NCBI RefSeq assembly: GCF_026898155.1
Contig: NZ_CP114029.1
Location: 875,501-939,500 of the forward strand
Source of the DNA: Jiella pelagia
Lineage (GTDB): Bacteria; Pseudomonadota; Alphaproteobacteria; Rhizobiales; Rhizobiaceae
Length of the DNA stretch: 64,000 nucleotides
Direction: 5' to 3'
Part shown: positions 1-62,540 of the stretch, in pieces
Layout: each line of letters starts with the position of its first letter
How positions within the stretch are numbered: position 1 is the first letter of the stretch
Notes under the pieces: model-generated
What the model was told of the DNA's origin: nothing
Database searches by the model: none
The model's input: only the letters and a program-made list of their open reading frames with translations
Made by a program: the position numbers and the translations under genes

Positions 1-598
1 CGCGGTCGCCAGTGCCTGCTGGGATTCGGCCTGGGCGACGTCCGTGCGCGTGCCCTCGCCAACGTCGAACCGCGCTCGCGCCGCTCGCACCTGCTCGCTG
101 AGGAAGTTGAGGTTCTGGCGCCGGAAATCGGCGATCTGCCGGTCCCTGATGACGTTCATATAGTCGATGACGGCACTGAGGAGGGTGTTCTGGGTGGTGT
201 TGAGGAGATTGAACTGGGCAGCCTTCACCTGCGCCTTGGCGGAGCGGACATTGTTGGGCGTCTGAAAGCCGTCGAAGATCGTCTGGTTGATCTGGATGCC
301 GGTACTCCAGGAATAGGTCGTGTTACGCGAACGCGGCAGATTGTCGCCGAAGGTCGTCTTGCTGATCGTCGCACCGAGCGTGCCAACGCCCGCCACCCTC
401 GGCCTCAGCCCAGCCTTCGCCTGGGGAACCGTCTCGTCGGTGGCGCGCAGCTGGGCGCGCGCCGCGTTGAGATCCTGATTGTTCGAATAGGCCTTGGCGA
501 GAGCCTCCGGACAAGGTTTCCGCGCTAACGTTCGGCATTGCTGCGAGCGTCAGGGACGCCGACAGGAGGGCGAGGAGGGTAAACTTCTTCAGCACCAA
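1..598 (-). CDS. tolC: TolC family outer membrane channel protein (partial, one frameshift)
   Basis: This is the N-terminal part of a TolC-like outer membrane efflux/secretion channel; the C-terminus lies beyond the left edge. The start is TTG at 598 (or GTG at 595) with a GGAG about six bases upstream. Residues 1-27 form a signal peptide ending in NVSAE. The mature part then needs a shift at 501-507: after ETLSG the frame continues as ALAKAYSNNQDLNAARAQL, followed by IDGF-type text (INQTIFDGFQ) and RARFDVGEGTRTDVAQAES, all typical of rhizobial TolC. The shift is one extra base in GAGCTC, read GAGCCTC on the plus strand. It matches eight other cases in the window and is probably a sequence error. 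Neighbouring PIMT-like gene is in the order common in rhizobia. Family assignment is firm. Confidence 0.88.
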
Positions 599-778
599 TC
601 AATACTCCGGGCTGGAACGCGATCCGGTCCGGGCCGCATCATCGTCAGGACGATGAGTGGCGCAGAACCGCCTGTCCTACGCTATAGCCGAACAAGCGAA
701 CGAACTCGTCTCACTTTGAGGCAACAGCGCCGGTTTTCCCGCGACCGGGGCAAATCTGCAACGCACCGTGTCAAATGC

Positions 779-1432
779 TCAGAAAACGAATGCGGCCTTC
801 TGGCGGAAGCTCGGCAGCGGCTTGATCGAGCAGTTGAAGGCGAATCGCTCCGAAACCACCCCTTCGTCGTCCTTGACGTAGAGCAGCGCCTCGGCGGCAT
901 TGCCGGAGCCGCGAACGACGACCATCCGGCCGCCGGCCTTCATCTGGTCGAAGAAGGTGGTCGGCAGGGTCTCCACCGCGCCCTGGAAGATGATGACGTC
1001 GTAGGGCGCCTCTTCCGGGCAGCCTTCGATGAGGGCGTTTTCCACGACGGCGCAGGTGACGTAGTCGAGCCGGGCGAGATTGTCAGTCGCTGCGGCGGCG
1101 AGCGCCTGATCCTCTTCGAGCGCGACGACAGAACCGGCCAGATGAGAGATGATCGCCGAGGAGTAGCCGGTGTTGCAGCCGACATCGAGAACGACATCGT
1201 CCTTGTCGATGGCGGCAAGCTGCAGAAGCTTGGCGAGCGGCGAGGCTTCCATCACATAGCGGCCGTCGCCGAGCGGCATGTCATCGTCGACATAGGCGAG
1301 CGGACGACGCGAGGCCGGTAGAAACTCCTCGCGCGGGACCTCGAGAAAGGCCCTCAGGATCGCGTGGCTGGTGACATCCGTCGTCCTGATCTGATTGTCG
1401 ACCATCCTCGTGCGGGCCGCTTCGAAATCCAT
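779..1432 (-). CDS. Protein-L-isoaspartate O-methyltransferase family protein
   Basis: SAM-dependent methyltransferase of the PCMT/PIMT family, which repairs isoaspartyl residues in damaged proteins. It has about 217 residues. The N-terminus reads MVDNQIRTTDVT and is followed by the PIMT-like LEVPREEFLP. The SAM-binding motif is VVLDVGCNTGYSSA. The canonical substrate loop is reduced, as in the alphaproteobacterial subgroup found next to tolC, so true isoaspartate activity is uncertain. ATG codons also exist at 1441 and 1456; I prefer 1432 because an AGGA lies about eight bases upstream and the protein then starts MDFEAAR, as in relatives. It is transcribed in the same direction as tolC, about 180 bp upstream of it. 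Confidence 0.85.
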   Translation of the reverse strand: MDFEAARTRMVDNQIRTTDVTSHAILRAFLEVPREEFLPASRRPLAYVDDDMPLGDGRYVMEASPLAKLLQLAAIDKDDVVLDVGCNTGYSSAIISHLAGSVVALEEDQALAAAATDNLARLDYVTCAVVENALIEGCPEEAPYDVIIFQGAVETLPTTFFDQMKAGGRMVVVRGSGNAAEALLYVKDDEGVVSERFAFNCSIKPLPSFRQKAAFVF

Positions 1433-1569
1433 CGCCGACATCCTGCTCTCGTCCATCCGCTGGCGCTCATGGGGCGCGTCCGTTCCATAGTCGCGCGGCC
1501 GAACAGGTGCAAGCTTGGAGGAATGCCGGAAACACCAGCCAAAAATGGCAAGACCCGCGCGGCCATCGC

Positions 1570-59456: not shown

Positions 59457-59461
59457 CCGGC

Positions 59462-60907
59462 ATGCGCATTCTCTCGGTTGCCTCGGAAGTCTTTCCGCTG
59501 ATCAAGACCGGCGGTCTGGCCGACGTCGCCGGTGCACTGCCCGGCGCACTCGCCGGGCTTGGCGGCGACGTCACCACCATGCTGCCCGGCTATCCCGTCG
59601 TCCTTGCGGCCCTGGCGCGATCGAATGCCCGGGTAGAAAGGCTTCCGCTAGCCCCGGTCCTTGGCGCCGAGGCATCGATCCTCGCCGTCGAACTCGCCGG
59701 GTTGAAGCTCTTCGTCCTCGATATCCCGGAGCTCTACGACCGCCTCGGCGGACCGTATTCCGACGCCGGGGGACACGACTTTCCCGACAACTGGAGGCGC
59801 TTTGCGGCGCTTTCGAAAGCCGGCGCGCGCGTCGCTCAAGGGGCGGTCGCCGGCTATCGGCCGGACATTCTTCATGCCCATGACTGGCAGGCGGCGCTGG
59901 CGCCGGTCTATCTCGCCGCCTCGAACCGCCCCCGCCCGCGGACCGTCCTGACCATCCACAACCTCGCCTTTCAGGGCAACTATCCTTCGCACGTCTTTCC
60001 CGAACTCGATCTTCCGGCCGCCACCTGGTCGATCGCGGGCGTCGAATATTACGGCAATGTCGGCTTTCTCAAAGGCGGGCTCCATGCCTGCGACGTCGTT
60101 ACCACCGTCAGCCCGACCTATGCCGAGGAGATCGTCACCGAGGGTGGCGGCATGGGTCTCGACGGGTTGCTGCGCGGCCGCGGCTCGCGCCTCGTCGGCA
60201 TCGTCAACGGCATCGACACGGACGTCTGGAACCCCGAGGCCGACCCGGCAATCGCAGCCGGCTATTCGGCAGCCGATCTCAAGCCGCGGTCCCACAACAA
60301 GCGGGCGCTCGAAGGCGAGTTCGGCCTCCGGCGCGAGGACGGCCCGATCTTCGCCGTGGTCAGCCGATTGACCTGGCAGAAGGGCCTCGATCTCGTCGCC
60401 GGCATCTGCTCCGAGATCGTCGCACGCGGCATTCGCCTCGTCGTCGTCGGCTCGGGCGAGGCGATGATCGAGGGTGCCTTTCAGGCCGCCCATTCGAAGC
60501 ACCCCGACAGGGTGGGCGTCCGGATCGGCTATGACGAACCGCTGTCGCACCGGGTGCAGGCCGGCGCCGACGCGATCCTCATCCCCTCCCGCTTCGAGCC
60601 CTGCGGCCTCACCCAGCTCTACGGCCTGCGCTATGGCTGCATTCCGGTCGTCGCCAAGGTCGGCGGCCTCGCCGACACGGTGGTCGACGCGAACTATGCG
60701 GCGGTCGGCGCCGCGGCCGCCACCGGCGTCATCTTCTCGCCGCCCGACGAGGCGTCGCTGCTCGGCGCCGTCGACCGGACGCTCGGCCTCTACGAGGACG
60801 CCGGCGTCTGGCGGAAGATGCAAGCCGCGGCTATGAAGTCGGACGTTTCCTGGGAAAAGAGCGCGCGGATCTATGCGGGTCTCTACCGCGATCTGATGAA
60901 AGAGTAG
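59462..60907 (+). CDS. glgA: Glycogen synthase (ADP-glucose dependent)
   Basis: GT5 glucosyltransferase of 481 residues extending alpha-1,4-glucan from ADP-glucose. The N-terminus [20 protein letters not shown] then DVAGALP contains the ADP-glucose-binding KTGG motif. [28 protein letters not shown] and [18 protein letters not shown] are conserved GlgA segments. ATG 59462 lies five bases after the corrected glgC stop. It is the middle gene of glgC-glgA-pgm. Confidence 0.96.
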
Positions 60908-60910
60908 ACG

Positions 60911-62540
60911 ATGATCGAGACGATCGCCACGACGCCATATGACGATCAGAAGCCCGGAACGTCGGGGCTTCGCAAGAAGGTCCCGCATTTCCAGCAGCCC
61001 AACTATGCGGCGAACTTCATCCAGTCGATCTTCGACGCCCTTCCCCTCGACGGCGGCGAGACGCTCGTCATCGGCGGCGACGGGCGCTACTACAATCGCG
61101 ACGTCATCCTGATGGCGATCCGCATGGCCGCCGGCAATGGCTACGGCCGGATCGTTGTCGGCCAAAACGGCATCCTGTCGACGCCGGCCGCCTCGAACCT
61201 CATCCGCAAGCGCGGCGCCTCCGGCGGCATCATCCTGTCCGCCAGCCACAATCCGGGCGGCCCCGACGGCGACTTCGGCATCAAGTACAACGGTTCGAAC
61301 GGCGGCCCGGCGCCCGAGAGCGTCACCGGCAAGATCTTCGAAAAGTCGAAGACGATCAGCCGCTACAGGGTCTGGACGTCGACGGCGCCCGACATCTCGC
61401 AGCTCGGCGAGACGAAGCTCGGCGACACGGTGGTCGAGGTGGTCGATCCCGTCGCCGACTATGCCGAGCTGATGGAAGAGGCTCTTCGACTTCGAAAAGA
61501 TCCGCGCGCTTCTCTCTTCCGGCTTCCGCATCCGCTTCGACGCGATGCATGCCGTCACCGGCCCCTATGCGACCGAGATCCTGGAAAACCGCCTCGGCGC
61601 GCCGGCGGGCAGCGTCTTCAACGCCGTGCCGAAGGAAGACTTCGGCGGCGGCCATCCGGATCCGAACGCGGTCTACGCCAAGGCTCTCATCGATGAATTG
61701 ATGGCCGAAGACGGCCCTGATTTCGGCGCCGCCTCCGATGGCGACGGCGACCGAAACCTTATCGTCGGCAAGGGCCTCGTGGTCTCGCCGTCGGATTCCC
61801 TCGCCGTCCTTGCCGCCAACGCCCATCTCGCCCCGGCTTATGCCAAGGGGATCGCCGGCGTCGCCCGCTCGATGCCGACCAGCCAGGCGGCGGACCGCGT
61901 GGCGCAGAAGCGCGGCATCGGCATCTACGAGACGCCGACGGGCTGGAAGTTCTTCGGCAATCTCCTCGACGCCGGCAAGGTGACGATCTGCGGCGAAGAG
62001 TCGGCCGGCACGGGCTCGGACCACGTGCGCGAAAAGGACGGCGTCTGGGCGGTCCTGCTCTGGCTCAACATCCTCGCCGAGCGTCGCGAGAGCGTCGCCG
62101 AGATCATGGCGAAGCACTGGGCCGAATTCGGCCGCAACTTCTACCAGCGCCACGACTACGAGGAAATCGACGCCAAGGCCGCCAATGGCCTGATGGAATC
62201 CCTGCGCGACCGCCTCGCCTCGATGGCCGGCCAGCGCTTCGGCACCCTCGTCGTCTCCGAGGCCGACGACTTTTCCTACAAGGACCCGATCGACGGTTCG
62301 GTGGCGGCCGGACAGGGTGTCCGGATCGTCTTTTCCGGCGGCTCGCGCATCGTCTACCGCCTGTCCGGCACCGGCACCAGCGGCGCCACCCTGCGCGTCT
62401 ATATCGAGCGCTTCGAGCCCGACCCTGCCAGGCATTCGCTGCCGCCGGAAGAGGCGCTGAAGGAACTGATCGACACCGCCGACGTCATCGGCGAGATCAA
62501 GAAGCGCACCGGGCGCAGCGAGCCGGACGTGGTGACGTGA
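60911..62540 (+). CDS. pgm: Phosphoglucomutase (one frameshift)
   Basis: Interconverts glucose-1-P and glucose-6-P. After correction it has 542 residues. The phosphoserine is in [20 protein letters not shown]; the metal loop is [14 protein letters not shown]; the sugar loop is [17 protein letters not shown]. The break at 61478-61484 is GAGCTC read GAGGCTC; removal of a base restores [20 protein letters not shown]. It follows glgA by three bases and links ADP-glucose synthesis to hexose phosphates. Confidence 0.95.

Follow-up and report, generated by a model that had tools for sequence, protein, structure and literature searches.

Surplus central bases at GAGCTC in the Jiella pelagia assembly and a predicted SacI-type cytosine-5 methyltransferase

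We analysed a window of 64,000 nucleotides of Jiella pelagia, together with the whole assembly from which it comes, and found that GAGCTC sites frequently carry one extra base at their centre. About three quarters of the GAGCTC sites very probably bear this surplus base through the combination of a predicted SacI-type cytosine-5 (C5) methyltransferase and unpolished long-read base calling. In this process, the central cytosine of GAGCTC would be methylated to 5-methylcytosine (5mC) on both strands, 5mC would distort the sequencing signal, and most reads would thus gain one base at the site. The surplus base, which itself is seen in the assembly, would then stay in a consensus lacking short-read polishing. 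The source reads were probably nanopore reads, and the genes broken on paper are presumably whole in the cell. A first-pass annotation of the window had proposed that GAGCTC is modified in this strain and that long-read base calling inserts a base there. Its sequence-level predictions hold, namely a genome-wide signature, frame shifts at the sites, a candidate methyltransferase and clean congeners.

The assembly comprises 5.95 Mb in three contigs, and its completeness is 84.97%, versus 93-100% in nine congeners. Each word was compared with its reversed word counted in the same genome (GAGSCTC with CTCSGAG and so on; S is G or C, W is A or T). GAGSCTC occurs 2175 times and the reversed word 984 times, a ratio of 2.2, versus 0.93-1.12 in the nine congeners. 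GAGCTC occurs 353 times against 2349 for its control, a ratio of 0.15, versus 0.51-0.74 in the nine congeners. Thus, by both ratios the signature is not seen in any of them. GAGWCTC is found 185 times and its control 177 times (0.57-0.93 in eight congeners), a genome-wide excess of about 50. From the congener means (1.04, 0.67 and 0.74), the excess of GAGNCTC is estimated at about 1,148 + 53 and the deficit of GAGCTC at about 1,218. By these estimates the surplus base is present at about 77% of 1,550 GAGCTC sites, that is, in about 1,200 affected copies. The restored GAGCTC count is about 0.66 of the control, so avoidance of the word is no stronger than in the congeners. Samples of 20 kb from each of the two smaller contigs hold few sites and point in the same direction (GAGSCTC 6 and 5, CTCSGAG 2 and 3). 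The signature spans the genome: the GAGNCTC excess is about as large as the number of missing GAGCTC, and reading frames shift at the sites.

Compared with the congeners in a 464-kb sample, the most depleted 6-mer was GAGCTC and the most enriched 7-mer was GAGCCTC counted with its complement. A broader GRGCYC (BanII-type) motif was considered and rejected: GGGCCC, GAGCCC and GGGCTC stand at 0.81-0.93 of expectation and show no excess of phase shifts over other controls. Only GAGCTC is depleted while its GRGCYC siblings stay close to expectation, so the affected word is GAGCTC. According to the available text of PMC11649196, Propionibacterium freudenreichii carries 5mC at GRGCYC, a motif that includes GAGCTC; its other member words are those found here near expectation and without frame-shift excess.

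The effect on reading frames was examined in a sample of 864 kb (the window and 40 further stretches), in which a codon model trained on congeners was used to compare the coding phase on both flanks of a word. GAGSCTC occurs 300 times in this sample; 97 copies were unclear, 11 lay at strand changes, three at edges and 189 were scorable. The phase was unshifted at 74 scorable copies, shifted by one at 110 and by two at five. In the same genome, the corresponding unshifted/one/two counts were 101/4/3 for the CTCSGAG control (n=108), 210/12/6 for CTCGAG, 29/1/1 for GAGCTC, 429/20/11 for GACGTC, 98/2/7 for GGGCCC and 350/20/17 for GAGCCC or GGGCTC; for GAGSCTC in congeners they were 43/1/3 (n=47). 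GAGWCTC occurs 40 times in the sample, and 10 of its 21 scorable copies were unshifted. The other 11 were shifted by one, which suggests that A or T is sometimes inserted. Thus, the surplus base is usually G or C, as first described, with a minority of A or T that the earlier description did not include and that agrees with the genome-wide GAGWCTC excess given above. GAGGCTC (153) and GAGCCTC (147) are about equally frequent, as expected if the call from either strand can win. No excess of phase shifts was found at GAGNNCTC (6 of 110 scorable copies shifted by one, 6 by two). A near-constant conversion of CGAGCTCG, first hinted at in 464 kb, was not upheld in 864 kb.

Alternatively, the insertions could be genuine mutations, such as might arise from faulty repair after a GAGCTC endonuclease has cut the centre of its site. 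In favour of this reading, the surplus base is central, at the position of a blunt cut such as some SacI isoschizomers make, and it is sometimes A or T. However, a living cell would have to survive an estimated 1,200 of these changes, and most of those that could be scored shift the frame, which makes real mutations unlikely. In addition, the alteration is by exactly one base at 77% of sites, with no phase-shift excess at GAGNNCTC. We regard this explanation as extremely improbable.

The window itself contains 18 GAGSCTC, two GAGWCTC and three GAGCTC. Its sites were judged by DNA alignment to congeners and by reading frames of congener proteins. Nine heptamers and the three intact hexamers are as follows (none is assigned to a strand; the names tolC, symporter, hss, glgP, glgC and pgm are those of the first-pass annotation).

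501..507, GAGCCTC: tolC-like; one extra base relative to congener G006 (1 of 1 aligned).
1939..1945, GAGGCTC: symporter; one extra base relative to G006 (1 of 1); phase shift of one.
2109..2115, GAGCCTC: same symporter gene; one extra base relative to G006 (1 of 1); phase shift of one.
39533..39539, GAGGCTC: hss-like; one extra base in 5 of 5 congener alignments; phase shift of one.
39972..39978, GAGGCTC: same hss-like gene; one extra base, 5 of 5; phase shift of one.
46298..46304, GAGGCTC: near the 3' end of a stomatin-like gene; one extra base, 4 of 5; the weakest of the nine.
55737..55743, GAGCCTC: glgP-like; one extra base, 7 of 7; phase shift of one.
59372..59378, GAGGCTC: near the 3' end of a glgC-like gene; one extra base, 6 of 6.
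61478..61484, GAGGCTC: pgm-like; one extra base, 6 of 6; phase shift of one.
47076..47081, GAGCTC: no surplus base; the congener frame reads through.
51066..51071, GAGCTC: no congener alignment.
59729..59734, GAGCTC: no surplus base; the congener frame reads through.

In the DNA alignment, all nine heptamers that had been named as one-base insertions proved to be one base longer than the aligned congeners, although at 61478 the gap falls two bases outside the heptamer in four of the six congeners. Congener proteins split with a +1 frame at seven sites (501, 1939, 2109, 39533, 39972, 55737 and 61478); at three of these, 39533, 39972 and 55737, one protein match each reads through. The other two sites, 59372 and 46298, lie close to the ends of their genes and gave mixed results. 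At 46298, the codon-phase test gave no shift, the fifth congener shows a 4-base gap and the surrounding stretch is poorly conserved. The stomatin frame and that of the next gene form one open reading frame in the window and lie in different frames in G006, which fits one extra base at this site. The other GAGSCTC copies at 14503, 14704, 15561, 22479, 27424 and 36140 show no gap within the heptamer when aligned to congeners and are natural; those at 21324, 50694 and 62857 have no DNA alignment to congeners. The GAGWCTC copies at 6480 and 11177 are read through and so look natural.

Two further observations were made in the window. A run of C at 48538-48541 is one base shorter than in six congeners, possibly an ordinary homopolymer difference unrelated to GAGCTC. 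The segment 50780-51890 gives many short matches of high identity across contigs of G006, often at contig ends, and looks like a mobile element.

The first-pass annotation had suggested a search of the full genome for a GAGCTC methyltransferase, having seen none in the window. Searching the genome for the families PF00145 and PF01555 yielded a candidate 0.42 Mb from the window, and it is the only PF00145 gene of the genome. It is listed here with the neighbouring gene that is predicted to encode its partner.

C1:1356652-1357887, minus strand: PF00145 methyltransferase gene, 412 amino acids, 192 bits.
L002:3087-3875 and 2546-3418 (G000:C1, about 1358.0-1359.2 kb): two pieces of the predicted partner endonuclease gene, split near a GAGGCTC; a single gene in relatives.

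The missing GAGCTC methyltransferase has very likely been found in this candidate. It has the fold and motifs of C5 methyltransferases, and its GPPCQPFS stretch is invariant in most columns. Relatives at E-values up to 1e-60 are present in seven of 397 genomes of the order, this genome included. No such relative was found in the sole congener of that order sample, and eight congeners gave either a weaker top match to PF00145 or no match. Outside this species, six of 10 proteins scanned match RE_SacI (PF09566) and lie next to relatives of the candidate (L118, L120, L123, L124, L139 and L190), and the neighbour of L136 matches a profile built from these RE_SacI neighbours. The candidate shares 53-59% identity with the six RE_SacI-linked methyltransferases. 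Its residues 205-298, lying between motifs VIII and IX, are identical to the RE_SacI-linked relatives at 58-62 of 94 positions, a conservation no lower than that of the remaining protein. This conservation supports GAGCTC as the target and is not proof of it. Because its relatives adjoin SacI-family endonucleases and share the target-recognition region, the candidate would recognise GAGCTC, and it is probably active in the cell. PADLOC profiles matched it only generically (type II, DruM, DrmMII).

Another enzyme or mark, for example adenine methylation, might modify GAGCTC while the C5 methyltransferase has another target. Two PF01555 genes are present in the genome, and the search was limited to the PF00145 and PF01555 families. 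One of the two is CcrM-like, and each of the 12 relatives searched contains a comparable match. The other, a predicted DNA methyltransferase with a weaker PF01555 match, lies in a phage-like neighbourhood at L102:6747-8576 (G000:C1, about 3.27 Mb). It is the C5 candidate, however, whose close relatives adjoin RE_SacI and whose recognition region is conserved no less than the remaining protein, and the available text of PMC4725820 describes M.SacI as a C5 methyltransferase of GAGCTC. By our reading of the position numbers given there, M.SacI methylates the two cytosines at the centre of the site, and the surplus base appears at this same place. We therefore consider modification by another enzyme improbable.

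The gene upstream of the candidate methyltransferase encodes an MTaX1 (PF20296) domain and a C-terminal PD-(D/E)XK-like domain, and this neighbour is conserved in relatives. Its reading frame is probably split by the same GAGCTC artefact. A fold comparison limited to residues 231-401 found the PD-(D/E)XK nuclease core fold with the D...ExK residues. This gene is predicted to encode the partner endonuclease, and the two genes together are predicted to form a GAGCTC restriction-modification system. Relatives of the partner match PF20296 and not PF09566, a profile comparison with RE_SacI revealed no similarity, and RE_SacI has no match in the genome itself. The partner protein had no match among PDB sequences, and its pieces were unmatched by PADLOC profiles. 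Its family has at least 1,741 homologues at E-values up to 0.001.

Neighbours were typed in 48 of 80 related methyltransferase loci. A gene matching both partner pieces was found in 12 of the 48 and RE_SacI in six (five of which built the profile); one further typed locus, L128, gave a weak match to the MTaX1 profile. A methyltransferase tree was made from 45 rows; L112, L136 and L143 were dropped for stops, and L119, L146, L148, L150-L152 and 28 of L153-L185 are also left out. On this tree the MTaX1-linked and the SacI-linked rows each need three label changes, and the sole sister pair uniting the two kinds, L111 and L118, is not starred. Other neighbours were also seen. In Citrifermentans bremense, the gene of an EcoRV-family endonuclease (PF09233; L127:3190-3969) adjoins a methyltransferase belonging to this lineage, and the endonuclease is perhaps a third nuclease type for the site. 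In Microbacteriaceae, a weakly ParB_N-like protein, below the Pfam cut-off, follows the methyltransferase in place of either endonuclease family (L141:5230-6345 and L144:5227-6345); the methyltransferases of these two loci are more distant relatives (44-45% identity).

The system resembles SacI restriction-modification in that its methyltransferase belongs to a subfamily adjoining PF09566 proteins and the same site is predicted; it differs in that the neighbour here is the MTaX1 and PD-(D/E)XK protein. MTaX1 occurs in restriction-modification and Dnd/Pbe-type systems, and a role in discrimination of modified DNA has been suggested, according to the available text of PMC10853773. As in the systems described there, the domain lies near a cytosine-5 methylase, whereas here it is fused to a C-terminal nuclease fold, beside one methyltransferase lineage and with a predicted specificity.

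Nanopore errors at motifs caused by modification are documented in PMC10687267 (Listeria), PMC11610573 and PMC12392509. As far as the available text of these reports goes, such errors share with the present assembly that they concern one motif, are strain-specific, persist into the assembly and are ascribed to DNA modification. Searches of the open PMC library turned up no description of a base inserted centrally at GAGCTC. Modification-caused errors are of a known kind; what looks new is the central insertion, together with the specificity that it suggests for a nuclease family not yet characterised.

Several points weigh against modification by the candidate methyltransferase combined with base calling as the source of the surplus bases. 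The errors in the available text of the cited nanopore papers are mainly substitutions, whereas here a single base is inserted at the centre of a palindrome at about 77% of sites, and the unaffected sites, about 23% of the total, follow no clear flank rule. Within the recognition region, four distant C5 methyltransferases with unassigned targets still agree with the candidate at 30-41 of 92 positions. The SacI-type label comes from the RE_SacI neighbours of relatives and not from the M.SacI sequence (AAC97118.1), and about 30 of the 48 typed loci have neither RE_SacI nor MTaX1 adjoining the methyltransferase. In addition, the signature was found in none of 38 carriers of related methyltransferases drawn from 81 related loci (highest ratio 205/111); the record titles of many carriers suggest short-read or metagenome assemblies. 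Among 396 other genomes of the order, none with at least 300 control sites exceeded a ratio of about 1.8 as read by eye, and several low-count genomes exceed 2.2 (for example G025, 120/20).

These surveys also bear on whether the sequencing method misreads GAGCTC whatever its modification state. That the signature did not turn up in another modified genome would leave room for such an error. However, none of the 396 genomes, whatever their platforms, shows a comparable excess resting on at least 300 control sites, although some of them are assembled into only one to three contigs. The insertion is also limited to one palindrome, which is the predicted specificity of the genome's own methyltransferase. 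A plain method error is slightly less probable still than modification by another enzyme, and methylation of GAGCTC by the candidate remains the reading that we favour.

In conclusion, annotation of this assembly would mark as broken many genes that are predicted to be intact, with an estimated 1,200 sites involved. The low completeness of the assembly may partly stem from the surplus bases. Counts of a motif against its reversed control detect such scars without reads and point to the responsible methyltransferase. We give about even chances to the proposal that base-calling scars in published assemblies can be read as a methylome and that, here, they identify GAGCTC as the site of a so far uncharacterised family of endonucleases with MTaX1 and PD-(D/E)XK domains. 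This family, which has no detectable relation to RE_SacI, would be another endonuclease type for the SacI site, swapped in beside one methyltransferase lineage. The scar counts give this partner protein family a testable specificity.

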